From Paramacrobiotus metropolitanus (lineage: Eukaryota > Tardigrada > Eutardigrada > Parachela > Macrobiotidae): a stretch of DNA of 52,835 nucleotides. This document shows positions 20,540-50,023 of the stretch, in pieces (the stretch's first letter is position 1; each line of letters begins with the position of its first letter). Below the pieces are notes generated by a model that saw nothing but the letters and a program-made list of their open reading frames with translations, did not search any database and was not told the origin of the DNA. The DNA is taken from the NCBI RefSeq assembly GCF_019649055.1, contig NW_026570540.1, forward strand, positions 1 through 52,835, written 5' to 3'. The translations under genes were made by a program, and so were the position numbers.

Positions 20540-21429
20540 AACTTGGACATTCTCTCACGGCGCCTTCCGTCGCCTGCTGCAACAAGTCGCTGACGCGCCA
20601 CCAACGTCTGAGCGGCTCGAACTCGCGACCGCAGTGCAGCCTTATCAGATACGCTTGCACGTCTTCCGAGAAGAGTTCCATCTGACTGAAGCCGCGCTCT
20701 AGCGAGAGCAGTCGCAATCCGGGCAAATCAGCGAAAGTACCGGCTTCGAGGGACTCCAGCGTGCTGTTGACGAACTGGATCAGGCGCACTTTGCTCGACG
20801 GCCAAAAGTCCACTCGACGCACGTCCAGCGCCCGGCAGTCATGTGCGGAAAACTCCAGCAAATGCGGCAGGCGCAGTTGGGTCAGCTTGTCCGTGGCGCG
20901 GGACGAGCGGCAGTTGCGCAAGCGGAAGACCACAGTCTGCTCCGGACCGGTGCCAAGTTGTCGAAGGTTATCTGAGGTCCGTCGTTCAGACTGATGGAAA
21001 CCGCCTTCAGAGGCGGCTGCGACAGCGCTAGCGCTAATTTGTGCACTTCCTCGTTTGTCGCGTTTTCGCTGCAGTTGATGGCCAGTCCTTGGTTTTGGGC
21101 GCAGGCGATCGAGTTGTCAACGCTTATGCGCCCTCCGCAGTTGGCTGTAAACTGCAGCTCGCACTGGTCGCGCGTCATCAGTTCCGTGTTGAAATTCGGC
21201 AGGGGCGAAAATATACCGACATCGCAACTGTTGAATTGGCCGCCTGTGAAACAGAAATAGGGAAACCGGTTTCAACTACGTAGGTTACCGAATAAAGGAT
21301 TAGCTCTTCACAAATGTTGACTTCGAGTCTAAGGCATATATCTGACTCAATACCGTTGCTTTCGCCAGCGGTGGCGGTAAATAAAGGCAGTAGAACTGCG
21401 CAGGCAATCAACGCTGTTGATGGATGCAT
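20540..21429 (-). pseudogene. Secreted LRR gene, copy 1 (module 1 only, truncated)
   Basis: Exon 1 (21429-21354) encodes a signal peptide (MHPSTALIACAVLLPLFTATA) and ends in phase 1. The intron is 21353-21244, and exon 2 starts at 21243 in phase 1. Exon 2 encodes a Cys-bearing N-terminal region (MTRDQCELQFTANCGG) and LRR-like repeats (LEAGTFADLPGLRLLSLE). A C-terminal flank with RLHCGREFEPLRRWW follows. Compared with copy 2 (48082-50023), one base is missing near 20945, which shifts the frame. Similarity stops abruptly near 20545, just before the tandem array, so the rest of module 1 and all of module 2 are lost. Copy 1 keeps the segment that copy 2 has lost (28 nt). Secreted LRR proteins commonly bind other proteins; no specific partner can be inferred. 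Confidence 0.75.
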
Positions 21430-21639
21430 AGCGAATTAAGTAAACGTATCTAGCGGAAACTGCAGGATGCCGCCCATTACTTGTTGGCCGAGAAGTTTTG
21501 CGAATTTCTAGATATTAAATGGAATTCTCTACGTTGCGCACAGTGTTCTATTCAAAGACTGTGAGACGTCTAAAATTACCAATTTATCTTGCGACTGCCT
21601 TTAAGCGCCAAGCCGAAATTTTGCAAACCGGCTTTCGGC

Positions 21640-21845
21640 AATCGATATTTCTTGGAACTGTGCTGACATTACACTAATGCAAGAGTGCTGATTCACGCAC
21701 TACGAGTTCTGCTGCCATTAAGCGCTATAATTTCATGAAGTCTCCAGTGCACAAGAGACACGGAACTGAATCTGCTTCTTGCTGAGTTTAAGCGGAGGTT
21801 GACTAGAAACATTTGCAGCCCGAAGGCTTTTACGGATGCTAACTC
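21640..21845 (-). promoter_or_regulatory. Upstream region of LRR copy 1, conserved with copy 2
   Basis: Contains blocks shared in the same order with the region upstream of copy 2 (about 50210-50430), for example GTGCTGACATTA, AAGCGCTATAATTTCATG-like text and TTGCAGCCCGAAGGCT. It marks a duplicated 5' flank; any regulatory role is inferred. Confidence 0.4.
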
Positions 21846-21985
21846 GTTTTTTTTTCTTTCCATTCAATAATTTCAGCATAAAGAAAGTAACACAGCTACA
21901 TAAGCTACATAACAAAGCTTAAGTGTAACAAAGCTACATAAATCATTTATTTATCTTTCGGTACAGTCATTTTGGCGCCCGCATA

Positions 21986-23175: not shown

Positions 23176-23464
23176 ACAAACGCTGCGCGAATCAATATTT
23201 GGAATTATATTTTTTTTTGTTTTATTTTTCATGTTTTCCAATGTTTCTCAAGATTTCTCATAATTCTTTGTTTTTGTCACGACTTAAAAGTGGAGTAACA
23301 TATTTACTTAATATTTTCTTGCCACTGAGGGCTCACAGAACCAACTAAATACCAATGACGTTGCTACGCTAGCATACTGCTTCTCCAGCTGCCGCGCTAG
23401 ACAGATGACCCACAGAGGTTACTAGAGCCGAGGTTATTAGAGAACAGCACATTCTCGTGATATA

Positions 23465-25038
23465 CGAGGACATTTGGGTGCTGTGAACATACCCTGCACG
23501 ATTAGGCTGCGATGAACAGCCGGCTCAATTAATGGCACTTGGCAGTCGATTGCCTCAACCGTGTATGCCATCCTGGGCGGCTGGCAAACCAGCCCGTAAT
23601 GTTACGAAATTGGTCGCATCCACGGTTTTAAACAGATTTTCTCCATAGACTGGTATGCTAACTTCAGATGCGTGTCATTCTTGATTATGAAAATAGAACT
23701 GTTCAAGTCGTATGCAAACGACAGAAAATTAATTTTCACGATTTTGAGACCAAAGAAGTTGTGGTTTGTAGCAAATGAAACAAGTTACAGCCATTTTAGT
23801 TTTCTCGTAGACTTAGCATACAATTCACGATCAAGGGTCCCACGCGGCGATTCTATGCTGTCACTACGAGAAACTTCAAACAGCTGTAACTTGTCTTTCA
23901 CGCCATAAACTGCAACTTTTTTGGTGTCGAAAATCGTGAAAATAAATTTCTGCCGTTTAGTATATGACTTGAACAGTTTCATTTCAAAATCAAGAAAACA
24001 GGCATCTGAAGTTAGCATACCAGTCTATGGAAAAAATCTGTTTAAAATCCGTGGATGCGATATTCATGTTGTCCCAGGCTGATAGAAACTGCACGCCGAG
24101 CCGCTCGGCTCGGCTCACGAGCTCTCGGCGCTCGCGAGCACCTCGAGCGAGCAGGCGTCGTTTTGCGAATTTGCAAACGAGCTGAGCAATAGAAAAAAAA
24201 TTGCGAGCGAGCCGAGCGAGCGGGATGGTCAGGTGCGAGCGATCGCGAGCCTACATTGTTGCGAACTGGAGAAGTTTCTAGTACAAAATTATATTGACCG
24301 ACCTGAAAAAAGGTCTTAAACGACCGTCACCTTCGCTTCGCGCGAGTGATTTCTAACTTTCCTAGACCGGTTGGGACTCAGGACTAACCTTTGATATTTT
24401 GTACTCGTAGATAACAAAACATTATTTGACGGGTTTATGAATCAGTTGAATGCTTCCTGAGAAAGGTGCATTTTAATTTTTTTAGCATTCTATTATAATT
24501 ATGTATTTATTTCAGGCTAAATTAAGAAAACTACATCCAGTTGAAAATTAGAGAAATGTATTAGCGAAAAATGAAAACTGTAATGAAACGGACTACCAGT
24601 ATGGAGATATAAATGACTGTCTCTGAACATCCAATTACACTTACTGAGTCTTTGTGTTGGTGAAACGTTTGGTATAAGTAATTCGTGCAAAAAAATTGAT
24701 GCGTAAATTACAAATTTTTGCGATCTCACGAGCGAGCCGATTTGCCAAAATAAAATTACGAGCGAGTTGAGCGAGGCGGAAACAAAGAAAAATTGGAAAA
24801 CGAAGCGAGTTGGCGAGCGGCGGTTTGGGAGCGAGCGAGTTGAGCGAGCAGGAAGTTAAAAAAGCAGAAACGAGCGAGTTGAGCAGCACTTTTGCTGCTC
24901 GTGCAGGGCTCTACGGGCTGGTTTGCCAGCCGCCCAGGATAGCATACACGGTTGAGGCAATCGACTGCCATTAATTGAGTCGGCTGTTCATCGCAGCCTA
25001 ATCGTGCAGGGTATGTTCACAGCACCCAAATGTCCTCG
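23465..25038. mobile_element. Nested palindromic element FB3 (1.57 kb) flanked by TA
   Basis: Outer TIRs of ~140 bp start CGAGGACATTTGGGTGCTG and include GCCGCCCAGGATAGCATACA on the right. Each end is preceded or followed by TA (23463-23464, 25039-25040), suggesting a TA target. Inside the left half lies a second, complete palindrome (~23610-24065) whose arms share TAGACTGGTATGCTAACTTC. The remaining interior is flanked by GAGCGAGC-rich low-complexity stretches (24090-24260 and 24720-24900), also in inverted orientation. No coding sequence recognised. Confidence 0.7.
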
Positions 25039-25040
25039 TA

Positions 25041-25633: not shown

Positions 25634-26127
25634 CTACGGTTTGAGAATCGGCGGTGGGGCCTGTGCTGCTGCTGCACTGATCTGCGCAAAGGTAGGCTTC
25701 GGCGCTGTAACTGCCGGGATGGCGGTTGGCTTGGTTGTCGAGCCGGGGGTTTGCGTGTGGAGGTGGTTTCCTCGTCACTGGCAGCCTCGGTAACCGTGAT
25801 GGCGGGCCCGGGCATTTCCCCTGAAGCGTCGGATTTTTCTTGTTGGAACACTCGCAGTGTCTGTTTCTGCACAGTTCCTCGGTGCACCCTTTGAAGCAAT
25901 GGCTGTCCCTGTGGCATACCTTGCCAAGGCAAGTTTGACCGAGTTGTTCTGCAAAAAGGCCCAAAACACTCGCGTTATCATCATGCACAGCACGGTAGTT
26001 GTTATCATGTACATCGTCTTGTACGTCATCATCATGGTTGCAGCAATGAACAGCACGTTAAGGTCACTTACCGTCGTCAGCCGAGGCCGCACAGGACTAC
26101 GCAGAAGAACAGGATAAAAATCCGCAT
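25634..26127 (-). pseudogene. Cys-rich secreted protein gene A, frameshifted
   Basis: Paralogue of intact gene B (45893-46360). Exon 1 (26127-26072) encodes MRIFILFFCVVLCG and ends at GGTAAGTGACC, the same donor context as B. It is 56 nt long instead of 76, giving the wrong phase and an in-frame TGA. Exon 2 starts at 25948 after TTTTTGCAG and holds the Cys block TCLGKVCHRDSHCF, then EELCRNRHCECSN. After GKCPGP the frame shifts (to ITVTEAASDEETTSTRKPP) and shifts again before the end TAIPAVTAPKPTFAQISAAA, stopping at 25634. At least three frame breaks make this copy non-functional as read. The Pro/Ala/Thr-rich tail is conserved despite them. Confidence 0.75.
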
Positions 26128-26275
26128 GTTTGATCACTTTGATGGAGGGAAAGAGAGTAGAATTTTAGAGGTTAGCAGCTGGAGCTGTTGGTAGCGGATG
26201 CCGGCTTTATGTTCCATTCGTCCTCATTGCCGATCAGCTGCTTCAGCACTAGCATATCGCATCTTCACCGAAATC

Positions 26276-27938
26276 GTGACCGACCAAGTCGTCGCATAAA
26301 ATCTCGTCGCGGGACACTTCGTCGGCCACATTTAGTCGCGAAGACATTTAGTTTCTGGACAAGTCGTTGCTAGTCAATTTGGTCGGGAGATATTTGGTCG
26401 CGAAACATCCGGTAACACGGACACATCGGGGTCAGACATTTCGTCGGCGCGACAGTTGGATAGGCAATTATGTAACGGAGGGGCGCTCCGCCCTCCTGAG
26501 TAGCTATTCGCTGTTTCTGGGGATTTCCACCCCGCACATTGCTGCGCTGTTTTGACGGATCTGCAGCACAGGTGCACTGGCTGCAGAATCCTTCCTTGTT
26601 AGTCTGGTGTTTGCTGCGCCACGGTGCGCATTAGATTCGGCAATAAAGCCTCATCCGGGTTCACCGCTGTTTCGCTGTCGAGGATACGCGTGGCGCCCAT
26701 ACGGCCCCGCGTTATAATTATTTTAAAAGAAAAATTTTATTTTCAGTTTAAAAAACACCGTCGTTTGACTTCGAATTAATTTTATTGAGACCGGCATGTA
26801 AGATTACACATTTCCGTATATTTTTAAATTTCTAAAACCATAGTAATTACATGGTAAATAAATTATACACAAACTTAAGTTGCCGATTTGTACATAGTGC
26901 CTTTCTTGTAATACACTAACGAATCATAATACGACAAACTATACTAATCCATTTGCTACTCGTTACGTGGTATTAAATAACAAATATTACACTAATAAAT
27001 CAACCTAGTTTTTGCTCTTTCACTGGCAAAAATAATGCAGAATTAACAAACAAGCGAGATCCAGTTTGGTTATTTATCCCGGTTGTCTATCTCCGGCTTA
27101 TAACCGACTCTCTATTTGGAGCTAATTCACAGAGAAATCACAGCACGGACAGTCACCCTCACTTTCATTTACCCGAACAGATGTCGTTCCAGTTCCCATC
27201 ACACATTTTGATTATGTGATATAGGGGCTGGACCGAACCAACCTCCGTTTCCACACACTGACACAGATAAGATACAAAAGGACGATGATCGAGTCGTTTA
27301 CTGTTGAACAGCAATAAAATTTAACAATGCCTTTCTCTTTCTGACTTACTGTTGCTCTTTTTCTCTTAAGATTGTAAAAGGCAGGCAAGTCTGGTTTAAT
27401 GTCTTTAAAAGTCGACGCTGGAGCGTGCCAAAATCACACTTCGAAAATCTTACGACAACGGTGCTTCCAACATAATTACAGTTTTGCTAGTTTTTTTAAC
27501 TAAAGCGCCAACCTAAACAAACTTGGCCTTTCGATTGATTTTATTCAGTTATAAATTATGATGGCTGGATACAGTTTTTCTTTTCTTGGTAATGTTGGTA
27601 TTTGTTTTATTGTTAGTTAAACTGTTTTTATCCCTTAGTAATTTGTTTTGCTGACAGAACATGGTATTCCGTTTCGTAATAATTCCCATTAAAAAACCCA
27701 AAAAAATGCGGCGCAACGAAAAGTCCATGCGGCGATTTATCCATGCGGCGAAATGTACCAGTTAAACAACGAGTAGATTTGCAACCAACTGTCACGACAA
27801 CGAAGTATCCCAAAACGAATTGTCCATATAACGAAACATCCTAACACCAATTGTCCCCCGACCAAAAGTCCTTTAAACGAAGGTGTCCCCGACGAAATGT
27901 CCCGCGACGAGCTGTCCCGTGACGACTTGTCACGTAGC
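26276..27938. mobile_element. Mutator-like TIR element (1.66 kb) with 10 bp target duplication
   Basis: CACCGAAATC occurs at both borders (26266-26275 and 27939-27948). The paralogous region at 39191-39240 reads straight through the same sequence (TCTTCACCGAAATCTGATG) and is an empty site. Terminal ~200 bp are degenerate inverted repeats built from AAGTCGTCGCGGGACATTTC-like words, matched inverted on the right (GAAATGTCCCGCGACG). A 9-11 bp duplication is typical of Mutator-like elements, so that assignment is an inference. The interior has a GC hairpin (GGAGGGGCGCTCCGCCCTCC) and an AT-rich half (26710-27940), with no recognisable transposase. It splits the upstream module of Cys-rich gene A. 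Confidence 0.8.
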
Positions 27939-27948
27939 CACCGAAATC

Positions 27949-28366
27949 TGATGTCGGTTGAATACCACGGGTAGGTCTCAAGGACCTCGCTCCGAGAAAA
28001 ATGTTGGCCAAAATGCAAGTTGGCGCTTTTAAACGTGGCATGCCCTTCACGCGTTTCCGACTGGAAGCGCGGCACGATCGCCACATACAAGCTACAGCCG
28101 CGTATTCCCATGCAAATCTTCATGCTGCAATTCCGCTGACTTGTGAGGTTTACCCATTCGGCTTCTTTCTAAAGCGGCATCGTGACAAAGTGGCAGTGTA
28201 ACGCCGGAGAGTTTCTCCGGATTCTTGCCGCGCCTTAGTCGACATGTACAGTTTGTAAGCCGCAACATCAGTCCGATCGACACGTGACGCGATAACCAAA
28301 AGTAAAACTATCCGATAACGGAGCAACCGCAACGGTTGCAATATCCCTGTTATTATATGGATGCAT
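27949..28366 (-). repeat. Upstream module of Cys-rich gene A (distal part)
   Basis: Before the insertion at 26276-27938 this was continuous with 26128-26275. It is similar, in the same orientation relative to the gene, to the regions upstream of genes C (39065-39606) and B (45201-45892). The distal edge is GCAACCGTTGCGGTTGCTCC. The small ORF conserved in the other two modules is disrupted here: its ATG is replaced by AGG-type sequence and a frameshift follows. Confidence 0.65.
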
Positions 28367-28453
28367 CAACTTAATAACGATAACGAATGCGATATTTAAC
28401 GATAATGTGGTACCAGGAACAACGTATGATATCATTCATCAAAATGTGTTAGT

Positions 28454-28933
28454 TTAGTTAGCTTGTTCAAGATTCAAGATTTGTTCATATAATTTTAGAA
28501 TATAATTCGCTACGTTTTCGCTGGTAATTTTGCAGTATAATTTCCGGTCAAGAAAAATTCCCAGGTTTTTCACGTGATCACAATTTGGGACAGGCATATT
28601 GTCAATAGTATAACGATACGGACAGATAGGGCTTTGTTTCTTTGAAAAGTGAACGTGAGCCGACTTGGTCGCATTAAGACACAGGCTTTTGCTTGCAAGC
28701 CATTTGTGTAACAGCGTTAGGTCTTCCAGAAGTAGGTCACTGTCAGATTTGTCAGTGATCGGACGAAACCCAACGATGTCATCGGCAAAAATAAAAGCAA
28801 CACTACCGTTCTTCAGCGCTAACCTAGTGCTGTTTAAAACGCAGATAAACAATAAAGGCCCTAAAACAGACCCTTGAGGGACACCGCTGTAAACAGATAG
28901 GCAGTTTGGAAATTGTACCATCGACACAGACAC
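28454..28933 (-). pseudogene. LINE reverse transcriptase fragment (jockey/CR1-like)
   Basis: A 159-codon frame begins in the RT core: SVYSGVPQGSVLGPLLF (motif 4 region), then FADDI (catalytic YADD-type box) and a LGIFLDRKLYC block. The fragment lacks the endonuclease and N-terminal RT on one side and the C-terminus on the other. It lies immediately downstream of LRR copy 3 on the same strand. It differs in sequence from the LINE at 39739-42595, so it represents a separate family. Confidence 0.75.
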
Positions 28934-29114: not shown

Positions 29115-30008
29115 TCAGGGAACAGTACACATTTCCGCGTTTCTCGAAAATGCGGTTTCCGTGAGGTTGATGCTTTCGGCACCCATCGGAATTGGCTCCG
29201 CACAGTCAATGGGTAAAAATATGTCTTCCCGATTGTACGGTCGGCTTGTGAGATCGGTCGGATAGGCCCACACTTCACCCGAGTCAACCGCCCCGTGCAA
29301 CAGCCGCGTGTTATTCGCCCACCAGTGCCGGAACCACTGGAAATCGCAGCCACAGTGCAGTCGCCACAAGTAATCCCTGATCCGCGGCCGAAATGTTTGC
29401 TCAAAAACACGTTAAAATAGAAGTCACCTTCTGGTAGCAACAGGCGCAGGTCGGGGAGAGCGCCAAATGCGTCGAATTCCAGGCTGCGCATTGTAGTGTT
29501 GGCCAGCACTAATTGCCTCAACTTCGGTATACGCTGGAAGTCGCTCCGTTGCACAACCAGGTCGCTGCAACCCCAGACACCGAAGTACAAAAGACTGCTC
29601 ATCCGGAGATCGGCCGCCGCTTGCGTCCCACGGCTTCCGGAGCAGCCGGACACGTCGAGGCTGACAATCGACAGCCGAATCGGAGCTATATCGGCAGATG
29701 TGAGATTCCAGCGCTGAATGATATTCAAGTTGTTGGCCGCTGCCTTTGTTTCGCCATCCCGATTGCCAGTTCTCGAATTTCGCGTAACTCTGGCTCACTG
29801 CGGTAGTCAGGTCGCCAAAAGTTGTGTTTCCTGCAACTCCCCGGCGGTAAGTGAAAATTGTTGCAGTCATAAAGATCACGTTGTAGTCACCAGCATTTGA
29901 CAATTGACAGTATCTGACATTCGGTCTCCGTTAACGGCTCGCTCGAAAATGTTTGGAATTCGTCACCGCGTTCACCCCAATCGACAGAGGGGTCATGACC
30001 TTCTGGGC
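29115..30008 (-). pseudogene. Secreted LRR gene, copy 3 (module 2 only)
   Basis: Matches exon 3 of copy 2 (48980-48082). An acceptor (GATTTCAG) ends at 30009 and the frame then reads GDEFQTFSSEPLTETECQIL. A TGA interrupts it at the position of a Tyr/Ser pair in copy 2 (KCW*LQRD versus KCYSLQRN). A shift follows near the NIIQRWNLTSADIAPIRLS block, and another occurs after LRLLLPEGDFYF, before RLHCGCDFQWFRHWW and the end TAFSRNAEMCTVP. The LRR-like (FDAFGALPDLRLLLPE) and LRRCT-like (CGCDFQWFRHWW) elements are clear. Module 1 is absent; upstream sequence is the 5' end of a Helitron, which may have removed it. Confidence 0.75.
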
Positions 30009-30035: not shown

Positions 30036-33000
30036 TCCTATATATTAATAAAATAAGCCTTAGCGAATTTCATTTCTGTCACCCTTGTTTGAGCGAGCCA
30101 CTGAACCAAACTTTGATGTCCTTATGTCATTCAATAGCGCCCAGCTTATAGATTTGCAGAAACCAGTCAGTTTTTCGAAAGTATGTAAGGTTTAAGAGAA
30201 ACATTCAAAAGAATTTAACATAAAAAGTCTATGGGAAAAGTGGAAAACTCACCACTGCAAAATCCTCCACACCACCACTGTAACACACTGATGCTACCTG
30301 TCATCTGTCCAGTATAGTAATTGCCTACCGCAGCAGGAAACCACAACCGTAATTTAAGCAGTTGCCGGACTATAGGGGTTGACAGCACTGTATCATTACG
30401 AGTACTGTTACTGTGCTGCCAAGTGAATTCCGCCCTTTTTCGTACAGCATGCTAGACAAGAGCTGTATGGACGGCTCTAGCGTTCAGTGGGTTCACTGTC
30501 TACAGGCTTATGAACTGCCTGAACAAGCAATTGTTCAGGCGCAGCTGCAGCTGCAGTTTTATTCGTACCGTCTGGCAGTGCGTTCCCAGTTCAGTTTACT
30601 CCACGCTCCGGGAAAACTGTTTCTGCAGTTTGTAGTTGACGCTTACGTCAGAGTAGAAGGAAGCCGCTTACAGTTTATCCGACTTAACCAAAAACATTTG
30701 CGTGCCGAGTCGTATGCCGGCCTGCTGGATCACATCAACAGTATTGCCGCCGATAATAATGTGGCTGCCGGCAAAGTCGTGGTGCTCGCATGAACTTTTA
30801 TGGGAAGTCCCAGAAACATGCAGCAAAATTACCAGGACGCTATGGCAATTGTCAGACGATACGGTAAACCCGACCTGTTTATCACGTTCACCTGTAATCC
30901 CCAATGGCCAGAAAATCCCCAATGGCCAGAAATTAAAGAAAACCTTCGAAAATGGGAACGCGCTCAGTATCGGCCAGATTTGATTGCAAGGTACCGTAGT
31001 TCCTTTTGATCCATTAAAATAAAACAAGTGCATGCATAGACACGCAATTAAGAAAATATTCATGGAAAATAAATTAAGTGGCATTGCATGTTAATTTGTT
31101 TTCAAAATTAAAAAGTTTTCTTCAGTTTGTGCCTGCAGAGGAAATTCTATTGCCAAGGATGCACGAATAGCCTGCAAATTCGCACAAAATAGTAGTATAG
31201 GTAATCGGCATATTACCGGCATATGTGTGTAGTACAATGGTTAGGTATAACTTAGGAATATATTACGTAACACAAAATACAAAGAAATCTGTTGAGAATA
31301 TTACGTACTTCTATCGAGATATTTAGTATGTAATTATGCGGTATTTGCTTCACAGAAAAATTATTTAGTGGTTTCTTTAGGGTGTTCAAGTTGAAGCTGG
31401 AGGAACTCATGCTGAACGTCATTAAGAAGCGAATTTTTGGGAACGTTACGGCTTATGTATATGTTATCGAGTTCCAAAAAAGAGGTTTACCGCACGCCCA
31501 CATTTTGTTAATCTTGGATTCTGAATCAAAACTCCGGAACATTGAAGATATTGATAGAACTGTGAGCGCAGAATTTCCTGATCCCGTAGGCTGTCCACGA
31601 CTTTTTGATGTCATAAAGACAACCATGGTTCATGGGCCGTTTGGAAAGCTTAACCCAAACTCACCGTGTATGAAGGACGGAAAGTGCAGCAAGGGATTTC
31701 CGAAAGAATTTTCGCCGGCTACTAAAGAAAATGGAAGCGGCTACCCAATTTACAGACGACGCGATACTGGAAGCACGGTGATAATCAACGAGGTGCCGGT
31801 CAACAATCAGTGGGTAGTTCCCTATAACAGTTGGTTGTCTTGCAAATTCAGTGCCCAAATCAACGTGGAAGTGTGCACCAGTGTCAAGTCTGTAAAATAC
31901 CTATTCAAGTATGTCTACAAGGGCTACGACTGTGCGAATGTCAAGATCACGCAGCGATTCCAGTCTGCAGATGCCGGGACTTTAGTCTGGGATGAAGTGG
32001 ATACGTTCCTGAATGCCCGATATGTGAGCGCTCCTGAAGCTGTGTGGCGGCTCAATGAAAATAAAATGCACAAACAATCCCATAATATCGAGCGCCTCGC
32101 AGTGCACTTAGAAGACATGCAGAACGTTGTGTTTGAGGAAGGAAACGAAGTGTCTGCAGCAGCAAGAGCAGCAATGTCGAACAGCACACTAACAGCGTAT
32201 TTTGCTCTTAACCGGAAAGCGATGCAGCTAAGTTGATGCACTATATCGACATTCCGGAGCATTTTGTTTGGAACGTTCGGGCAAGAAGTGGGAGCCCCGA
32301 AAACGCGGTGGGGATACCGTTATCGGGCGCATGTATGCAGTATCGCCGTCAGGCCGAGAAAGATTCTTCTTGCGTTTACTGCTACTACATGTAAAGGGTA
32401 AGTGAGAAGAAGCGTTAACATAATACACATTACATAGAACAGGGGTGCATCGTACAAATCTGGATTACGATTTACGCTCATATTGCTTTTTGCGTTTTTT
32501 GAACATTGTTAACGAGCAAACAGGTCAAACAATATAGCAACGTTTTTTTACGCGAAATAAACCGGCAAATGGTATCAACATAGTGCGCATACAGAAAGAC
32601 TTATCTGTACGCGCATGCGCATACGATGACTTTCACACGCTTGCCTTTTCGCTTTTTGACACTGGAAGCCAAAGGTTTTTCTACATGGTCGTGAACATTC
32701 TATTACATTTTTATCCCTACAGCTTACATAAAATCCTTTTGCTGAAGGATGTGATGAAACGGTAAACAAAGGTGTACGAGCGTGTGTGAAAGTGAAAGTT
32801 TTCGTGAATGTACGACAATTCACATCTAAAAGAAGTGACCTGTATGTACAGGTCACATCTTTAAGCATCTACTACAACAGGGTGTGTTTAAAGCTCTCAC
32901 TTTCGTATGAGAAGATAATTGTTAGTAATTTTAGGAGCAACGTCCCATGCCTCATTGCGAACAGTGGATGGAGTACCGTATGACACCTATCAAGAAGCAG

Positions 33001-34060
33001 CGAAAGCACTTCAACTTCTAGATGATGATGCCAAATGGGGTGCATGTTTAGCCGAAGCGAGTCTTTCCAGTATGTCGAAATCATTGAGGGACATGTTCGC
33101 GTACATTTGTGCATTTTGTATACCGGCCGATCCTAACGGACTTTTCGAAGCGCATCAAGAACATTTGATGGAGGACTACCGGCGTACTTACTCGGAAGAG
33201 GAAAGTAGAACAGGGCTCTATGGGATGTTGAGTGTGTCCTGATTCTGCATGGATTTACCTGTGAACAGATAGGACTACCGAAGCCAGCCCGTCCTGTTCA
33301 CAATATTTGTGATCAGTACAACACAGAAAAAGAGGCTGCAGACGGTGAAAGACTGTAGCTGACGCTTAACCAACAGCAAAGGGAATTTGTTCGTGAAGTT
33401 ATGCATTCGGTAGAAACTGCCTCTGGCCCGAAACAATGGTTTCTGGATGGCCCCGGTGGAACTGGTAAAACTTACGTGTACCGTTGCTTGGCTCACATTC
33501 TGAGAGGGCAGGGAAAGACGGTGATAATTGTTGCATGGACCGGGATTGCAGCGACACTGCTCCAAGGTGGTCGCACCTGTCACTCCGCATTCAAATTTCC
33601 TCTGAATCTGGATGAGTATTCAGTGTCCAGTATGAAACCGAGCTCCTTAGAGGCGCTACGGTTGCTAGATGCTGCCCTGATTATTTGGGACGAAGCACCA
33701 ATGGCACCTAAACATGGCCTTTCGACGCTTGACCGTCTTTTACGTGATCTGACGAGGAATGAACTTCCATTTGGTGGGAAGGTTATAGTATTCGGTAGCG
33801 ATTTTCGGCAAGTCCTTCCAGTTGTACGGCATGGGTCACGCACAAAGATTGTTGAAGAAAGCATTGCTAAGTCCACTGTGGCCGTGTATTACAACCAGAA
33901 AGTTAACGGTGAACATGCGAACTGACCAGAACAGCAAGTCTTTAGCAAATGGCTCCTGGAGTTTGATGCCCGTAACAGCGGTTATCGCCACATGGCCTCC
34001 AACAAGTCACCCAACTGCGCTCTTCCACTGCGGGAAGCCCGAATAGAAGAGGACCGCCCA
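30036..34060 (+). pseudogene. Autonomous-type Helitron relic with two introns
   Basis: The probable 5' terminus is TCCTATATATTAATAAAA preceded by A, in Helitron style. The coding relic runs from ~30413. An N-terminal Helitron_like_N region and GSPRNMQQNYQDAMA lead to DLFITFTCNPQWPE, where NPQWPE is duplicated in tandem. Intron 30991-31380 (GT-AG, phase 2) precedes VFKLKLEELM. The HUH rolling-circle motif is RGLPHAHILLIL. A frameshift near 32288 is followed by LRLLLLHVKG and a GTAAGTGAG donor; intron 2 ends with TTTTAG before GATSHASLRTVDGVPY. The PIF1-like helicase has Walker A GPGGTGKT, Walker B IIWDEAPM and SDFRQVLPV. A TGA at 30793, a stop near 33356 and frameshifts near 33880 disable it. 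Late helicase motifs and the 3' end were not found. Confidence 0.85.
32400..32935 (+). other. Intron 2 of the Helitron gene
   Basis: Donor GGTAAGTGAG and acceptor AATTTTAG bracket 535 bp of AT-rich, non-coding sequence between conserved helicase-upstream blocks HVKG and ATSHASLRTV, which are contiguous in Helitron proteins without this intron. A short hairpin GTGACCTGTATGTACAGGTCAC occurs at ~32836-32857. Confidence 0.7.
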
Positions 34061-35981: not shown

Positions 35982-36021
35982 GGTACTTCTCGGTTTTTAA
36001 AATGAAAAACCGAGAAGTACC
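35982..36021. repeat. Perfect 17 bp inverted repeat with 6 nt loop
   Basis: Arms GGTACTTCTCGGTTTTT and AAAAACCGAGAAGTACC pair without mismatch around AAAATG. It sits in the centre of FB4, directly before the LINE fragment. It is too long to be chance in ordinary sequence; its function is unknown. Confidence 0.9.
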
Positions 36022-36032
36022 AGAACATCATC

Positions 36033-36179
36033 CACGATTACCTGTTCCGAGCGGTCGGCGTAGAGACACTGGGGCCACTCGGACCGGAGGCCTCCCGGCT
36101 GATTAGCGAAGTGGGCAAGATGATATGGCAAGAAACAGGCGAGAAACGTGCAACGGAGTTTCTGCGCCAGAGGTTTTGA
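36033..36179 (+). pseudogene. LINE RT C-terminal fragment inside FB4
   Basis: Frame HDYLFRAVGVETLGPLGPEA, then GEKRATEFLRQRF and TGA. The pattern Y.F...VETLG...GE.R...FLRQR is the C-terminal signature of a LINE RT family common in marine and other invertebrates. Three more pieces of the same family occur in the window (38044-38316, 51902-52070, 52490-52835). Confidence 0.7.
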
Positions 36180-37412
36180 ACTGTGTTATTTTTAATCAGA
36201 ACTGAAAATGGTGCGCACTCTGTCAGTTCAATACACCTTATTCAGAGAATTACAGATAGCATTACTGCTGATAATGCATATAAATTAGCCGTAACAGATT
36301 AGGCTGTGTAAAATAATTATAATGTATGCAGACAGACACTAAAATATGCAGTCTCTAAAATCGTATTACTGTTACCGACACTAAAATACAGATATGTACC
36401 ACTTCAGGCACTAACGTAAATTATGTTGGGTATGCATAAAAACACTGAAATGGTTTTAGTAATGCAGTTTTGGATATGATCCTTGCCCATCAGACACTTC
36501 CAGTACAACGTTGTCGTTGTTCTAGTAGCACAACGTCGAGCAGTAGGAATTGTGTATTAATTCTTCTTTAATTAGTCTAGTGGTAATATTGGTCTAAATT
36601 TAAATTTCGGATTGCCATGTGCTTGTTTACGTGTAATTTTACATACTGTAATGTAGTGCCGCGCTAAAGTGCTGTATCTGTAGGGCCGTCTAAATAATGA
36701 TTGGTAATATTAAATTAGAAAACCAGTAAAAACTGTTCTGCACTTTTGTGTTCCCAGTTGTTTAAAATAATCATGCCAGTTCTGTTTCGGGTTTGTCGGT
36801 TTGATAATAATTACTTTAAAGCTTGTGTTTACATATAATAAAGATAATCACGTTGAGCGAAAACGCGTGTGCAGGAAAAATTTAACAAAACTTTTTTTAA
36901 ATTTCAGCAAACGATTTGCCTCTGCGTGTCTGCAATAACCGTGTCAGCTAACATGCTAGTGTTAACGATTTATCAATCAACCGCACTTAATTAACTGATT
37001 CATACGCCATATGTAACCACAAGAGAGATTCTAGCGCTAACAATAAGTGACGTGCTTTCCAGATCTAAAAGTGTCATAGTTGCAGATTTAACGCGCCTTG
37101 TTTGCGGAAACGGCAAATGCAGTGTGAGTGTGTGACCTTTCGAAATTTTGTGTTCCGGCGCTTAATTACTTAACCTAGCCAATGCTATTTGCACTTTACA
37201 TGATAAGTTGATTTGTACTGGCCACATTTTCATGAATTATGCGTCTCCACACCCGCTTATACAGTCTGTAGGTGATGCCACAGTTTATGTGCCATCTGCC
37301 AGGTTTTATCGTTTGCCAGTTGCCAGAGTCTCCAGTTTTTATCGCATGCCATGCCGCTGGCAGTGCCATTGGCAGGTGCCACTGCCAGGTTTTACACCCT
37401 GCCGTGTTCTTG

Positions 37413-38500: not shown

Positions 38501-39064
38501 TTACAGCTTGTCAACCGCCGCGAGGGCCGCACGAACCAAACCTCCCGGACGTCTAGTAGATGTCGTAGCCTTTGCTGTGGAAGGCCGAATTACAGATGCG
38601 GCAGGCGCGGCGGCTTTTTGCTTCGATGGTTTTGCAGGATCCCCGCTAAACCATCGAAGCAAAATGCCGCTGCGGGGACAGCATGCGCTGATGGCGCTTT
38701 CTGTGATGAAGATGGCTGATTGCGGCTGGGTACGACTTTAACCGCAGTTCTTTGGCAGTGTCCTTTACTAAGTCTATTGGCTCTGGGTAGTCTTCGGATA
38801 ATAGTGATTGGAACACTCACAGTATCCCCTTTTGCACCACTCGTCTGAACACTTGGTAAAACAGTCCTCATTCGTTTGACATTCCTTTTTTTGGCAAATC
38901 TCGAGTGCTTCTGTATAAAGGCCGGCATTTACTACATAACCGAGTTATCGCGTCGTTGATAAACAATAAACAATAACGCTAAGGTCACTTACCGCAGTCA
39001 ACCGGAGCAAAGACGATTGCAGCGATCACCCAAAAGCAAAAAACAATGCTAGGGAAATCTCCAT
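38501..39064 (-). pseudogene. Cys-rich secreted protein gene C, small frameshifts
   Basis: Paralogue of genes A and B. Exon 1 (39064-38993) begins MEISLALFF. A T6 run is one base shorter than needed: with one more T the exon would have the same phase 1 as gene B and continue as a hydrophobic signal peptide. The donor GGTAAGTGACC is identical to that of A and B. Exon 2 starts at 38910 after TTATACAG. It encodes ICQKKECQTNEDCFTKCSDE, then WCKRGYCECSN, with the family Cys spacing. The frame stops at TAG after TTQSQ. Another frame continues with GHCQ and a Pro/Ala/Thr/Arg-rich tail to TAA at 38501. A perfect hairpin (38616-38664) lies in the tail. Two or three single-base shifts separate it from an intact gene, so sequencing error is possible. 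Confidence 0.7.
38616..38664. repeat. Perfect 17 bp inverted repeat in the gene C tail
   Basis: Arms TTTTGCTTCGATGGTTT and AAACCATCGAAGCAAAA, with a 15 nt loop that includes GGATCC. It lies within the Ala/Pro-rich coding tail of gene C and has no counterpart in A or B. Confidence 0.9.
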
Positions 39065-39606
39065 CTTATGAAAGGGGTGAGAGGCAAATCGTACAACAAA
39101 CGTTGGCAGTTTGAGCTGTAGGTTGTGGATACGGCTTTAATGTGCCATTCGTCCCCGTTGCCGATTAGCTGCTTCAGTACTAGCATGTCGCGTCTTCACC
39201 GAAATCTGATGTCGGTTGAATACCACGGGTCGGTTTCAGGGACCTTGCTCCGAGAAATATACTGGCTAAAGTGCAAGTCGGCGGCTTTTAAAAGTGGCAC
39301 TGGGCGCATTTCCGACTGGAAGCGCGCCACGATCGCCACATACAAGTTTCAGCCGCATAACTCCATGCAACTATGCAGCGCGTGCAATTCCGCTGTGTTT
39401 TGCCGATTCGGCTATTTTCTAAAGCTGCATCGTGACAAAATAGCAGTGTCATGCGGAATTTCTCGGGGTTCTTGCCGCGCATTTAGTCGCTATGTACAGT
39501 TTGTAAGCCGCAACATCAGTCCGATCGAGCTGTGACGCGATAACAAAAACTATCTGATAACGGAGCAACCGTAACGGTTGCAATATCCCTATTCCTATAT
39601 GGATGA
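39065..39606 (-). repeat. Upstream module of Cys-rich gene C
   Basis: Uninterrupted copy of the module. It carries the small ORF at 39288-39482, the block with GTCGGTTGAATACCACGGG near 39210, and the distal edge CAACCGTAACGGTTGC near 39570. It is the empty-site reference for the element inserted upstream of gene A. Confidence 0.65.
39288..39482 (-). CDS. Small Cys-rich ORF upstream of gene C
   Basis: 64 codons, MRGKNPEKFRMTLLFCHDAA at the start and KCAQCHF at the end. An in-frame stop lies directly before the ATG, so the start is not arbitrary. The counterpart upstream of gene B (45487-45672) has 61 codons, the same start, CMWRS block and KC..CH ending; both length differences between them are multiples of three. 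It ends 223 bp upstream of the gene C start codon. No signal peptide is evident. It could be a separate small gene, an upstream ORF, or an accidental reading of a conserved DNA module. No known family recognised. Confidence 0.35.
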   Translation of the reverse strand: MRGKNPEKFRMTLLFCHDAALENSRIGKTQRNCTRCIVAWSYAAETCMWRSWRASSRKCAQCHF

Positions 39607-39738
39607 CCAACTTACGATGCTTTAATTTTATTACCAAAAACGCGATAACAATATCAAGAATCAATTTCGATTAAAGAAAAAACTTACGATAACGGATGCG
39701 ATATCATATTATTATGTGCTCCTCTGTATAATGTGCAC

Positions 39739-42595
39739 GGCATATTATTATTATTATTATTACATCAAGAGCAGACAACCCGATTAACGGGACTTCAACG
39801 TCTGGTCGGTACAAAATTAAACAACACAAGCTTACGACAGATCAACCATTCGGAGAGCAAATTCGGAGAGCAAATTTGAAAAAACCCACGCCATCAACAC
39901 TGAGTATCTGCATATTAACTTTTTGTATGCGCTCGAAAATGTCCTTTAAACGCATGGCCAATGTGCCTTCTCCGATCTTCTTCTTCGCTGACGCTTCGAT
40001 TCTCTTTGGCTTACGGAATATACCGCGATGTCATATCCGTGAAGTCAATCATGTCGACCATGTACTGCGGCGGGCGGTACGCTTCGTGGTTGTAGATCTT
40101 GTACAACCATACTGCTTCGGACTGCTTCCAACGGTCGTACACCGCCAGGATTCGCAGTTTCTGGTACAGCTCGGGGGTTACCCGCTCCTTGTAATCAGAA
40201 ATCGCCCGCAGTGCTTTCCGCTGTGCTTTAGCCAGTTTGCCGCGCAAAGCCAAAGATGCCGGTGACCACGTATCCGACCCGTAGTCGAAGTGTAGTTGCA
40301 CACAGGCATGGTAAAGGCTCCTACGCTGGGGCAGATCCAGGCCGTCTTTCCCGCAGTTAATCATTGCGATGCCGTAATTAACTTTTCGCAGCACATTATC
40401 TACATGAGTTCCCCACTTCAGGTTGCGGTCTATGTAAACCCCCAGATACTTTACGCATTTCTCTTCCTCCATCTGGTGGTCATTGATCGTCACCACGGGA
40501 GAAGGTTGGCTATTCTTCGATTCGGGACAGATGTACATGAGTTTGCACTTCTTTTCGTTTATGCAGAGGGTGTTATCTGCAAGCCAGGTTGTCACACTGC
40601 CAATCTGCACGGATAACTTCGCTGCGGCTTCTTTTTTCGTACGGCCGACGCCATACAGTACCGTGTCATCGGCGAACAATTCTGCGTCTTTTCCATCTGG
40701 CATATCATTTATGTACACAATGAACAACACAGGCCCCATCCTTGTGCCTTGCGGCACTCCCGACCGCACTGGGAGCCAGTCCGACACATGCGCTGTTACT
40801 TTCACTCGCTGCTTACGAGACGTCAGGTAGTCGTAAAACCACAGCAGCGCATTTCCTCCAACTCCAATGGTCTGCAGTTTTTCAAGTAATTTGGCATGGG
40901 AAACAGAGTCAAATGCTTTCTTCAGGTCCAGAAAGCAGACGGCCGTTACTTCTCCCTTATCCATCGCTTTTCGCCATTTCTCTGACATCTTCAACAGTAA
41001 TGTTTCACATGAATGGCCCTCTCTGAATCCGGACTGTTTGTCAGAAAGGATGTTGTTGGCTTTTAGGGTTGCAACGAGCTGGCTCTGTACGACTTTCTCA
41101 AAGATTTTTGAGAGGTTGCAGAGAAGCGAGATAGGTCGAAAATCGTCCGGCTGCTGCGCTATGCTGCTTCGGAATCGCAATGATATCAGCGTTCTTGAAG
41201 ATATTCGGATACACTCCCGCCTTGAGTGACGCGTTGATCATGCCCGTCAGCGGTTTTGCCATGTGCTTGTTCATTTCACCGAGGATTTTTCCAGGCATTC
41301 CGCACGGGCCCGCGCTTTTTTTCTTTCTGGCCATTTGCTGTATCAGGAATGATACAGTATCCTCGTTAACGTCTTCGAATCTGCAAAGCAATGGGTTAGT
41401 ACTGCCCCCTCCTGAGGGGCGGCTGGCAGCGTGCTCGTTGCCGTGCAGACCCTGAGCTGCAAAATGTGCGTTAAGTACGTTCGGATCCAAGGTTGGCTCA
41501 TCGTTTTGCTTCCCTTTCCGAAGGAGTCTGCCCAGCTCGCGCCAAACAACTTCCGCTTTATCCTGATTTTGTTTAAAAAACTTTCTCTTCTCGTCCAGAA
41601 TCATACAATAGACCTGCTTTTTCAAGCTGTGGAATTCCGCGTTGCACATTGAGTATTCATCTGTCCCACGGAGTTGACACCTGCGGCGGTAGCACTTGTT
41701 CTTTTCTTTAATAAGATTTTTCAGTGATAGACTCATCCAGGGGGGATCGTTCTGTCGCACTCTCCGGGATCGCAGTGGGAAACTTTCATCTACGATCTGG
41801 TTCAGTTCTTGGATAAAGCTGGTAATAACGTTATCGATTGAAACAGACTCATCATACACATTATACTTTTCACACACAGCTGCAACTCGCTCGTTAAATG
41901 CTTCAAGAGGAGTATGCTTCCATAAACGAAACGTAATCGTTTTGTGTATCGAAGAAACTGACTTGTAGGACGCTACTGTTCTGCATAGGCGGTGATCCGA
42001 AAAGCACACATCATCGGCTGGTAGACAGGAGTAACATTCTGCTGGTGAACACAGCAACACATCAATCTTTTTGGCACTATGCATCAGCGTACCATCGCGC
42101 TTTCGTATTCGACAAGCTATCCTAGTAAATCCCGAGACTTTATCCTCCAGCGCATGGTTGTTCAGTAAATCAGAATAATGTCGGAAAAAAGGGGAAGACG
42201 GTGCTGAGACATCTATATTGATATCACCACAGACAACGTGATCAATACCAGGATACTTCAGAAGCATTTCATCCGCATGGTTAAACAGAAACTCAGTATC
42301 AATCGCGTTTGCGTCAGGTGCTCTATACAGAAGTCCCAGTAGTATTTTACGTTGTCCGATCTGAAGGAGAACCCACCAACTTTCACAACGGCCACATGTT
42401 TCTGTTCTCCGAATTTCTTGGCAGGGGATATGGGCAGGAACATATAATAGGAGACCACCACCACGCGATTTACCCGATGCTTTCGTACGGTCTTTACGAA
42501 ATACCTGATAGTCAGGGAGCGAGTAGAGCTGATCGGGATCGTTCACAGTTAAATGGGTTTCCGATAGGCATAAAATTAACAGAAGGCGCATTGCG
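39739..42595 (-). pseudogene. CR1/jockey-type LINE, 5' truncated, one frameshift
   Basis: The upstream frame (42591-41098) holds the apurinic endonuclease: CLSETHL, then GDINID and the catalytic SDHRL. The linker has WMSLSLKNLIKEKNKCYRRR. Near 41165 the frame shifts by a small indel into the RT domain (41180-40011). There, DFRPISLLCNLSKIFEKVV is followed by FLDLKKAFDSVSH, VPQGTRMGPVLFIVYINDMP, FADDTVLYG (catalytic) and KYLGVYIDRNLKWG. The C-terminal region follows. The beginning of the endonuclease and ORF1 are absent, consistent with 5' truncation during target-primed insertion. A (TAA)n tail lies at ~39740-39760 on this strand. Apart from the frameshift the RT is open, so the copy is fairly young. 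Confidence 0.85.
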
Positions 42596-43010
42596 CTAGT
42601 TAATACTGTAAAAACCTAAGCGTTCCCACCCGGGCATTCCTGACAGATATAATTATGATTTACAAATAAAAACATTATGATTCTTGCCTCGTTCAAATAA
42701 ACGAAGCAAAACGAAAAAAACGCTTTAGCTAGACTGGATGCGAATATTCATCCACAATAAAAAAAACGCAAATGCGCTTGAACTTTCGACAAAATTAGTT
42801 CCTAGGTGCCACCGTGTAGTCACTGAAATACCGCACTAAAAAATTGACTGAACAACAACTACCAGTTTGAATACTAACATGGATCTAAATAATATCTGCC
42901 AGGATCGGTTAGTTTTTATCGGTTACTGGTTGTTATAATGTCAACGCATTAAATATATTAGTGAAGACAGTATGTACTATGTAATAATCAAGACACAAAA
43001 CCAGGATTCA
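42596..43010. other. Spacer, AT-rich
   Basis: No gene recognised. It lies beyond the truncated LINE 5' end. Confidence 0.35.
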
Positions 43011-45200: not shown

Positions 45201-45892
45201 AGCATCCATATACGTATATTGCAACCGCTACCGTTGCTCCGTTATCGGATGATTTTAATATTATCGGTGTGACATGTCGATTGACAACATGCACTACGGG
45301 TGTCTATTTCATGCACCAAAGTTGACAATCCACTGTCTCAGCAGAATGAAATAGCGTCTTCACCGTAAGCGGATGACAGCTGAATACCTTAGCCCGACTC
45401 CTAGAACGGGCTCTCAGAAATCAGCCGGAAAACAAGCCGGTCAGCGGGCTTTCCCAGTACAAAGCACTTCAGAAATTGTCGACAGGATGCGCGGCAAAAA
45501 TCCAGAGAAATTCTCTGGCCTGACACTACCATTTTGTCACGATGCCGCTTGGGTAAGCAGCCGAATCGGCAAATCTCAGCGACAATGCATTTGCATGGGA
45601 AACGCGGCTCCAGCCTGTATGTGGCGATCAAGGCGCGCAACCGGTCGGAAATGCGTCAAGTGCCACGTTTAAAAGCCGCCGACTTGCATTTCAGCCAGCA
45701 TTTTTCTCAGAGCAAAGTCCTCGAAACCGACCCGCGGTATTCAAGCAACAACAGATTTCAGTGAAGACGCGATATGCGAGTGATGAGGCAGCTGATCGGC
45801 GGCTTTGACGAATGGTACATAAAGCTCGTATCCACAAACTGCAGCTCAAACTGACAACTTCTAAAATATAACTCTCTTTCCCTCAGCGAAAC
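45201..45892 (+). repeat. Upstream module of Cys-rich gene B
   Basis: Shares with the modules of A and C the distal edge (GCAACCGCTACCGTTGCTCC), the small-ORF block and the block next to the gene. It also contains a short inverted pair: GCGTCTTCACCG...GCTGAATACC at 45357-45390 matches the inverse of 45735-45775 (GGTATTCAAG...TGAAGACGC). The module is ~150 bp longer than in C. Confidence 0.6.
45487..45672 (+). CDS. Small Cys-rich ORF upstream of gene B
   Basis: 61 codons from MRGKNPEKFSGLTLPFCHDA to KCVKCHV and stop. The frame is open further upstream to 45373, but the similarity with gene C's module begins at this Met. Shared features are CHDAA, SRIGK, QR.C, CMWRS and the KC..CH ending. It lies 220 bp before the gene B start codon, nearly the same spacing as in C. 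Seven Cys, many Arg/Lys, no signal peptide. Function unknown; it may be a 5' exon or an upstream ORF of the secreted-protein gene. Confidence 0.35.
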   Translation: MRGKNPEKFSGLTLPFCHDAAWVSSRIGKSQRQCICMGNAAPACMWRSRRATGRKCVKCHV

Positions 45893-46360
45893 ATGAGAAT
45901 TTTTAACGTGTTCTTCTGCTTAGCCCTGTGTTTCCAAGAATGGATCTGTGTGACATCGGCTGAGGACGGTAAGTGACCTTAACGTGCTGTTTATTGCTAG
46001 AGTCAACAATATGATGATAACGCGAACGTTTGCGACCTTGTTGTAGGAAAACGGGGGCCCACCTGCCTCGGCAGGCCTTGTTCAACGAACAAGGACTGCG
46101 TTTCCGAAGAGTGTACGGATATATGTGGACGCGGACATTGCGAGTGCGCAAACGGTGGGCGCCCGTGGCTTAACGCAAAATGCTCCGGGACCTACAGCCC
46201 GCCTTCCGATGCTGCCAACGATGAGGAAGCATCCCCCACCCGCAAACCTCCCGTGGTTACAACGAGGCCGACCGCTATCCCCGCTATCACAGCGAAGAAA
46301 CCTTCGCCTGCCCAGATCAGCGCAGCAGCACTGGCCCCACCGATGATTCTTAAGCCTTAA
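45893..46360 (+). CDS. Small secreted 8-Cys protein (gene B), intact
   Basis: Exon 1 (45893-45968) encodes a hydrophobic signal peptide, MRIFNVFFCLALCFQEWICV, with likely cleavage near TSA/ED. The intron 45969-46046 (GTAAGTGACC...TTGTTGTAG, 78 bp) is phase 1, and exon 2 (46047-46360) is open to TAA. The mature part has eight Cys in ~40 residues (TCLGRPCSTNKDCVSEECTD, ICGRGHCECANGG, KCSG). An 80-residue tail rich in Pro, Ala and Thr follows (EEASPTRKPPVVTTRP, AQISAAALAPP). The Cys pattern suggests a disulfide-stabilised extracellular domain resembling EB/EGF-like modules, but I cannot assign a family. It is the only intact copy of three. LRR copy 2 lies 1.7 kb away on the other strand. Role unknown. 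Confidence 0.75.
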
Positions 46361-47811: not shown

Positions 47812-48035
47812 CAGTGAAACTCCTCTACTACGTACACCCTCCGTTCCTAGCTTCCAGAACGTTACAAAGGGGTATACGTTAGCTAGGGGCACTGTCCCTA
47901 GGGGCGAATAATAACGCCCCCCAAGGGGTGAGTTATAAATTTGTGTGTACCTGCCGATAGTCCGGTTCCCAGCTATATGCACATAATAAAGGGGTGAACG
48001 TTATAAAAGGATGTACGTTACGGGGGGTTTCACTG
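47812..48035. mobile_element. Pogo/Tigger-like MITE (224 bp)
   Basis: TIRs CAGTGAAACTCCTCTACTACG and, inverted, CAGTGAAACCCCCCGTAACG, flanked by TA (47810-47811, 48036-48037). CAGTGAAAC-type ends and a TA duplication are known for pogo-like elements. The interior has several GGGGTGAACGTTATAA-like words. It sits directly after the end of LRR copy 2. Confidence 0.7.
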
Positions 48036-48081
48036 TACTTGCAAAGAAGAGCGCCAGTTTAATACACTTTACATTTTGCTA

Positions 48082-50023
48082 TTATTCGTGTTCAATACAC
48101 ATTTTTGCGTGTCGCGAAAACGTTGTTTCCGTCATGTTGATGCTTTCGGCAACCTGCGGAATTTGTTCCGCACAGTCAATGGGCAGGAACATATCTTCGC
48201 GACTGTACGGCAGGCTTCTGAGATAGTTCGGATAGGCCCACACCTCACCCGCGCTAACCTGCGCCCCGTGCAAAAGCCGCGTGCTATTAGCCCACCACTG
48301 CCGGAACCATGCGAACTCGCAGCCACAGTGCAGTCGCCAGATATAATCGCGGATCCGCATCGAAAATCCTCGTTCGACAACAGCGCGGTAATAAAACTGC
48401 GCTTCCGGCACCAACAGATGCAAGTCGGGCAGAGCGCCGAACGCGTCGAATTCCAAGCTTCGCATCGTAGTGTTGCCAAACACTAATTCCCGTAACTTCG
48501 ATATGCGCTGGAAGTCGCTTCGTTGCACAACGAGGTCGCTGCAGCCCCAAATGCCAAAGTAAATCAGATTGCTCAGACGGAGTTTGCCAGCCGTTTGCGT
48601 CGCACGGCCAGAGCAGCCGGAAACGTCGAGGATGACAATCGACAGCCGAATCGGTGCTATATCACCGGATGTGAGATTCCACCACTCAATGATGCTCAGA
48701 ACTGTTGGTCGCTGCCGTTGCTTGGCCATCGCGGTAGCAAGCTCTCGAATTTCGCGTTTCTCTGGTTCGCTGCTACAGTCCGGTTTCGGTCGTTTTCCGT
48801 AACTCTCCGGAGTGAATGGATAATTCCTGCAGCTACGAAAATTCCGCTGTAGTGAGTAACATTTGGCAATTGACAATATCTGACATTCGGTCTCCGTCAC
48901 CGGCTCGCTCGAAAAAGTCGGGAATTCATCACCCATTTCGGTTGCATTTTCCAGATCTGTAAGCACTGCATCACAAAGTACTGCAAGAATTTGTAAAGAA
49001 AATTTAATTCGAATCTAATAACTCACGGAGCCCCTCGTTAGCGGAAAATACTTCGAGCGCAAAACCTACAGAAGCTGATCCGTTGGGAAATGGTGTTGCT
49101 GCACAGTCGATGGTAAGAAACACATCATTTTGTTAAGGTCTTCGTTCTTCCATGAGTCGTACTCGATGCGATAGACGGCGCCTTCCGTCGCCTGCTGCAA
49201 CAAGCCGTTGACGCGCCACCAACGTCTGAACGGCTCGAACTCGCTACCGCAATGCAGCCGCATCAGATACAATAGGACGTCTTCCGGGAATGTTTCCATT
49301 TGACTGAAGCCGCGCTCCAGCGAGAGCAGTCGCAATCCGGGCAAATCAGCGAAAGTGCCGGCTTCGAGGGACTGCAGCGTGCTGTTGACGAACTGAATCA
49401 GGCGCAGTTTGCTCGACGGCCAAAAGTCCGCTCGTCGCACGTCCAGCGCGCGACAATCATTTGCGGCAAATTCCAGCAAATGCGGCAGGCGCAATTGGGT
49501 CAGCTTTTTCGTGGCGCGCGACGAGCGACAGTTGCGCAAGTGGAAGACCACGGTCTGCTCACGGACCGGTGCCAGGTTGTTGAAGGTTATTTGAGGTCCG
49601 TCGTTCAGACTGATGGAGACCGCCTTGAGCGGCGGCTTGGAAAGAGCCAACGCTAATTTGTGCACTTCATCACTAGTCGCTGCGTCGCTGCAGTTAATGG
49701 CGAGTTGCCAACATTGGTACGCACTCCGCAGTTGGCTGTGAACTGCAGCTCGCACTGGTCGCGCGTCATCAGTTCCGTGTTGAAGTCCGGCAGCGGCGAA
49801 AATATTCCGACACCGCCACTGTTCAATTCGTCATCTGCTAATCAAAGGAAGCGTTTCAATTATTCGCTGTTTTTATTCAGCCTCGTAATTATTTATTCCT
49901 GTTTATCCACAGATCGTTTCGTCAGAGCTAATCTCTTCAACTGGTACCTTTGCTGCTTGCAGCGGCGCTGTGCGAAAGTGCTGGAAGAAGTGCGCACAGG
50001 GCGAAATGTGCTAACGAATGCAT
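48082..50023 (-). pseudogene. Secreted two-module LRR gene, copy 2 (near-complete)
   Basis: Exon 1 (50023-49948) encodes a signal peptide, MHSLAHFALCALLPALSHSA. Exon 2 (from 49837 or 49834 to 49027) encodes module 1. A GTGAGT donor and a 46 bp intron (49026-48981) lead to exon 3 (48980-48082), module 2, which closes in frame (1 + 899 nt). The modules are paralogous: both have LRR-like repeats (LEAGTFADLPGLRLLSLE; FDAFGALPDLHLLVPE), an LHCG.EF..FR.WW flank, and a FL.IDCA segment. Exon 2 has two lesions: a 28 nt deletion near 49710 relative to copy 1, and one missing base near 49133 before VFLTIDC. Restoring 29 nt would give the expected phase, which supports one gene rather than two. Exon 3 is intact. 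Likely an extracellular binding protein; ligand unknown. Confidence 0.75.

Follow-up and report, generated by a model that had tools for sequence, protein, structure and literature searches.

The window, the whole stretch of 52,835 bases (0 N) that was analysed, probably holds (roughly 70%) a local cluster in which genes of two unrelated families of secreted proteins, 8-Cys and LRR, went through birth and death, with the array broken by transposons and a satellite and most copies decayed. This reading draws on homologies, candidate exon-intron structures, truncations (one LRR copy, LRR20, beside the satellite and another, LRR29, beside a Helitron), frame breaks, insertions and, for the LRR sequences, purifying selection in the past. 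Frame breaks or stops occur in five of the six copies. One 8-Cys copy of three (A3 only) and none of the three LRR copies read intact. The unusual point of the locus is that the DNA just ahead of the 8-Cys genes is better kept than their cysteine-rich part.

Sequence analysis

The window was compared with itself by blastn; matches with E up to 1e-6 were kept, and matches inside the satellite were excluded. Exon models are our own reading of splice signals, made without transcripts, and even A3 may be silent. An earlier note had placed three 8-Cys copies at 25.6, 38.5 and 45.9 kb and three LRR copies at 20.5, 29.1 and 48.1 kb. Self-blastn and tblastn confirmed both repeat families at these coordinates; the frame breaks and stops had not been reported. 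Across the whole window, ARAGORN detected 0 tRNA genes and Rfam gave 0 matches at gathering scores. NCBIfam profiles did not match any of seven proteins of the window. The Helitron and LINE sequences, the relation of the LRR modules to ectodomains of animal LRR proteins and the short GT..AG introns indicate an animal genome. Viral contigs were scanned with the alpha and beta LRR modules, the LINE reverse transcriptase, the satellite pattern and A3 exon 2, and prokaryotic genome contigs with the alpha module. Some stretches fitted a pattern, none passed tblastn, and 0 relatives were found in either set. No description of this pair of families was found in the literature, which is no proof of absence.

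8-Cys genes

Three 8-Cys copies were identified.
45893-46360 (+), A3, 8-Cys secreted-protein gene, the sole copy reading intact (ORF, splice-signal reading)
25634-26127 (-), A1, 8-Cys copy with ATG at 26127 and the Cys domain at about 25830-25934
38780-39064 (-), A2, 8-Cys copy with ATG at 39064

The copies at 25.6 kb (A1) and 38.5 kb (A2) lie on the minus strand and that at 45.9 kb (A3) on the plus strand. The A1 region 25625-26275 matches the A3 region 46369-45754 by self-blastn (E 7e-45), and the A3 protein matches the A2 region 38896-38807 by tblastn (E 7e-7). A3 has a signal-peptide-like exon of 76 nt (45893-45968), a phase 1 GT..AG intron of 78 nt (45969-46046) and a second exon (46047-46360) with eight cysteines and a Pro/Thr/Ala-rich tail. 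The introns of A1 (25949-26071, 123 nt) and A2 (38911-38992, 82 nt) share the donor GTAAGTGA with A3. Both A1 and A2 are broken, with the signal exon out of frame with exon 2. Matches of A1 exon 2 to A3 are spread over three different frames (tblastn), and A2 has a stop after the seventh cysteine. Eight cysteines are present in A3 and in the matching A1 piece, and seven before the stop in A2. All three copies retain the first seven, spaced 4,5,3,4,4,1 in A1 and A2 and 4,5,4,3,4,1 in A3. The A3 product is predicted to be small, secreted and disulfide-rich, ending in a Pro/Thr/Ala-rich tail. A structure prediction for the 8-Cys protein had a mean pLDDT of 53.4, too low to use. In PDB, two small disulfide-rich toxin chains matched the 8-Cys proteins weakly (E 2.5 and 0.12), which was put down to chance.

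EB modules have eight conserved cysteines. The EB profile (PF01683) scored 17.2 bits (E 0.0054) against A2 and 12.1 bits (E 0.21) against the Cys part of A3; it matched neither A1 nor the whole A3 exon. The likeness consists of these two sub-threshold scores, and the family differs in that every score is under the curated cut-off of 24.3 bits and A1 is unmatched. Among ten shuffles with cysteines fixed, none matched EB and two matched other families (E 0.14 and 0.29). The A3 match is therefore within noise, and only the A2 match stands out.

Conotoxins and mussel myticins are families of secreted peptides whose cysteine core is variable (PMC3823881, PMC7356231). The 8-Cys family likewise has a variable cysteine core next to a better conserved part, but here that part is the near upstream DNA, there are only three copies, two of them broken, and there is no venom or immune evidence. 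The abstract of PMC3823881 names a site-specific codon bias; in contrast to the bias described there, the cysteine codons vary among A1, A2 and A3.

Upstream DNA of the 8-Cys genes

The earlier note had described duplicated upstream regions in both families. Those of the 8-Cys genes are clear; for the LRR genes the claim is weak, as one 78-bp block at 82% passed E 1e-6.
45202-45858 (+), A3 upstream region, with a near block (45487-45858) and a far block (about 45202-45281)
26171-28373 (-), A1 upstream region, split by a TIR element (self-blastn)
39102-39614 (-), A2 upstream region, uninterrupted, TATA-like motif at 39285-39293
21752-21828 (-), LRR20 upstream block, 82% to 50359-50436 (self-blastn)
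50359-50436 (-), LRR49 upstream block, 82% to 21752-21828 (self-blastn)

By self-blastn the A2 region 39102-39614 matches 26171-26275 and 27928-28373 on the A1 side, and 45858-45487 with a separate block, 45281-45202/45210, on the A3 side. The stretch between the near and far blocks of A3 has no match to the other copies. A TATA-like motif, TTTAAAAG, is found in the A3 upstream region at 45668-45675.

Near upstream DNA differs at 44/281 sites (A1/A2), 45/274 (A1/A3) and 48/272 (A2/A3), or 16-18%. In the Cys domain, aligned by its cysteines where spacing differs, 42/105, 34/81 and 33/81 sites differ in the same pairs, or 40-42%. Fisher p values for near upstream against Cys domain are 1e-6, 6e-6 and 4e-5; the contrast with A3 is confined to the near 270 bp or so, a stretch chosen after the self-match was seen. 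The 5' untranslated stretch differs at 18, 23 and 19 of 92 sites (A1/A2, A1/A3, A2/A3), and far upstream DNA of A1 and A2 at 17/130. Over the whole upstream stretch, matching sites number 367/431 (A1/A2), 290/428 (A1/A3) and 285/419 (A2/A3), the pairs with A3 being low because the far part of A3 aligns poorly.

For non-Cys codons of the Cys domain, dN and dS are 0.67 and 0.79 in A1/A2 (28 codons), 0.72 and 1.40 in A1/A3, and 0.67 and 1.44 in A2/A3 (20 codons each). Synonymous and replacement divergence are both high in the core, and dN is above dS in none of the pairs. The A1/A3 tail is less divergent (dN 0.22, dS 0.72). Possible causes of the contrast, which comes from three copies with two broken, are promoter constraint, gene conversion acting on the 5' part, broken copies that decay under relaxed constraint, and a diversifying core. 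The conservation of the near upstream DNA is unlike what is expected of a long-dead family and counts against the birth-and-death reading preferred here.

LRR genes

The earlier note had counted three secreted LRR genes. Relatives do lie at 20.5, 29.1 and 48.1 kb (E 0.0 for both self-blastn alignments), but they are one two-module gene, one 5' half and one 3' half.
48082-50023 (-), LRR49, two-module secreted LRR gene (ORF, tblastn, splice-signal reading)
20557-21429 (-), LRR20, 5' half of an LRR gene: signal exon 21354-21429, intron 21244-21353 and beta module
29123-30008 (-), LRR29, 3' half of an LRR gene: alpha module from a splice-acceptor-like site
19101-20517 (no strand), satellite with a 105-bp unit repeated 13.5 times, next to where LRR20 is truncated

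LRR49 begins with a signal-peptide-like exon (49948-50023) and a phase 1 intron (49835-49947). Its beta exon runs to about 49027, a short GT..AG intron with its acceptor at 48981 or 48957 can join beta to alpha, and the alpha exon ends at a stop at 48082. The beta and alpha modules are paralogous (36% identical, E 6e-26, tblastn). The second intron also reads as phase 1 from the sequence and would fit duplication of a symmetrical module exon, by which the two modules may have arisen. The alpha exon is open; beta has a 28-nt gap relative to LRR20 and a later frame break.

LRR20 matches LRR49 beta at 85% over 682 columns and has one frame break. No alpha module was found at LRR20, which matches beta only, and its end adjoins the 105-bp satellite. 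LRR29 matches LRR49 alpha at 79% over 850 columns, with one in-frame stop and two one-base gaps. No beta module was found at LRR29, which matches alpha only, and its start adjoins the Helitron. Omega for LRR20 against LRR49 beta, taken in two parts, is 0.19 (bootstrap 0.08-0.37, 82 codons) and 0.34 (0.16-0.69, 128 codons); for LRR29 against LRR49 alpha it is 0.31 (0.21-0.43, 273 codons). With omega values of 0.19-0.34, the LRR copies show purifying selection in the past, so for a long time they evolved as working proteins.

A profile of five module segments matched SLITRK1 (E 3.2e-8) and LRRC4B (E 2.2e-7), and the match extends into the C-terminal Cys region. Pfam LRR_8 scored 19.4 bits (beta) and 12.1 bits (alpha), under its cut-off of 27. 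An AlphaFold2 model of alpha had a mean pLDDT of 33.9, too low to use. Signal-peptide-like first exons of 76 nt, ending in phase 1, are found in LRR49, LRR20 and A3. No membrane helix was found in the pieces read, by simple hydropathy applied to pieces rather than to the whole protein. The highest 19-residue mean among four non-signal pieces is 1.21, in the alpha exon; two beta pieces gave 0.51 and 0.71. The LRR segments align with those of SLITRK1, LRRC4B and Toll-like ectodomains and, in some alignments, so does the Cys-containing C-terminal flank. The signal-peptide-like first exon is a further likeness to these extracellular LRR proteins of metazoans, which carry a C-terminal Cys cap. LRR49 differs from them in having two short modules in tandem, and the LRR pieces of the window in scoring under the LRR_8 cut-off with no membrane helix in the pieces tested. 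The product of the LRR gene would have been soluble and extracellular, with two LRR modules.

Transposons and other repeats

Invasion by transposons, proposed in the earlier note, is borne out by a TIR insertion in the A1 upstream region, a second TIR element, a Helitron and a LINE.
26276-27939 (no strand), TIR element inserted upstream of A1, 1,664 bp long, its terminal repeats imperfect (self-blastn)
34444-37403 (no strand), TIR element with arms of about 300 bp (self-blastn)
30383-33922 (+), decayed Helitron lying 5' of LRR29 and retaining Helitron_like_N and PIF1 helicase segments
40014-42615 (-), LINE between A2 and A3, with RVT_1 above the Pfam cut-off and an endonuclease segment below it

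The first TIR element is flanked by ACCGAAATC at 26267-26275 and 27940-27948, a 9-bp target duplication. It separates the A1 start codon from a TATA-like motif, and its insertion site is uninterrupted in A2. The second has a perfect 9-bp target duplication, GTGTTCTTG, with an outer span of 34435-37412.

Other repeats and open frames were seen in the window. A reverse-transcriptase fragment lies between A1 and LRR29 at 28454-28933 (-) (RVT_1 E 7e-11). Between LRR20 and A1, a TIR element at 23463-25040 has arms 93% alike and an internal palindrome (23614-24060); no clear target duplication was found there. Nested inverted repeats at 14154-19093 have outer arms of 173 bp (97%) and inner arms (84%) with 33-bp tandem repeats, and the 105-bp satellite begins just outside them. 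Two long overlapping ORFs of 509 and 224 aa at 1743-3856 (-), which look transposase-like, have DUF4218 as their sole Pfam match (E 0.039, below cut-off). An open frame of 242 aa with a hydrophobic stretch at 4906-5631 (+) has 0 Pfam and NCBIfam matches.

It is distinctly unlikely that every copy works and that errors of sequencing or assembly produced the frame breaks. Several breaks are indeed single-base gaps, and the pattern of substitutions shows that the LRR modules were long under coding constraint, yet the 28-nt deletion, the in-frame stop, the missing modules and the 5' insertion of A1 are hard to explain by base-calling. If some one-base breaks are assembly errors, there are more living copies than stated here.

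Duplication history

The earlier note had proposed repeated duplication of a neighbouring 8-Cys and LRR pair. One form of this idea takes the pair on the minus strand (A2-LRR29, A1-LRR20) as the duplicated unit, with an inversion rearranging a third pair, A3 and LRR49, and transposons filling the gaps afterwards. The minus strand does carry a head-to-tail series, A2-LRR29-A1-LRR20, in which the families alternate. Alternation at least as strong as that seen, however, arises in six of 20 possible orders. Among 11 flanking stretches (the satellite side, 3' of LRR20, lay outside the comparison), no LRR flank matched the LRR flank of another copy beyond the 78-bp block; of the matches found, one of 72 bp joins the 3' flanks of A1 and A3, and two, of 27 and 33 bp, lie upstream of 8-Cys copies. 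Two further rows of the comparison were a single piece of DNA entered twice under different names. Orientations also differ: A1 and A2 are on the same strand as their LRR neighbours, and A3 points towards its LRR neighbour, inverted relative to LRR49. Divergence varies by family and region, so a common duplication date cannot be shown. Duplication as a pair was not upheld and is considered unlikely. In the preferred birth-and-death reading, each family would have gained nearby duplicates, transposons and the satellite would have split the array, and most copies would have decayed.

Function

The two families could instead form a linked ligand/receptor or recognition system with the 8-Cys protein as a variable ligand, which we regard as very improbable. 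They are linked in the window, both have signal-peptide-like exons, and the Cys domain, which retains seven cysteines, has diverged further than the near upstream DNA. Binding is also a common role of LRR proteins, which fits. Set against this are the failure to detect a membrane helix in the LRR pieces tested, the broken appearance of five of the six copies and the lack of any pair with Cys-domain dN above dS. Upstream motifs also fail to join the families: 82 8-mers are conserved in all three 8-Cys upstream regions (either strand) and 29 in both LRR upstream regions, with an overlap of 0 as a raw count without chance expectation, so shared regulation has no support here. A fuller version is extremely improbable: an animal locus for self/non-self or immune recognition, turning over by duplication and decay, in which a fast-diversifying 8-Cys secreted protein, its promoter conserved, is genetically linked to its binding partner, a soluble LRR protein of two modules. 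Linkage of the two families need not imply a functional pair. Under the birth-and-death reading, each family would most likely serve, on its own, in extracellular binding, whether for host defence or for some other function of a secretory tissue.

The cluster is most likely of an ordinary kind, gene-family turnover. It provides a compact worked example of such turnover while transposons invade, and includes the duplication of a module within the LRR gene. Should further copies show the same contrast of conserved near upstream DNA with a variable cysteine core, the 8-Cys family would become a candidate for a fast-evolving protein of defence or recognition, and one to survey across the genome.
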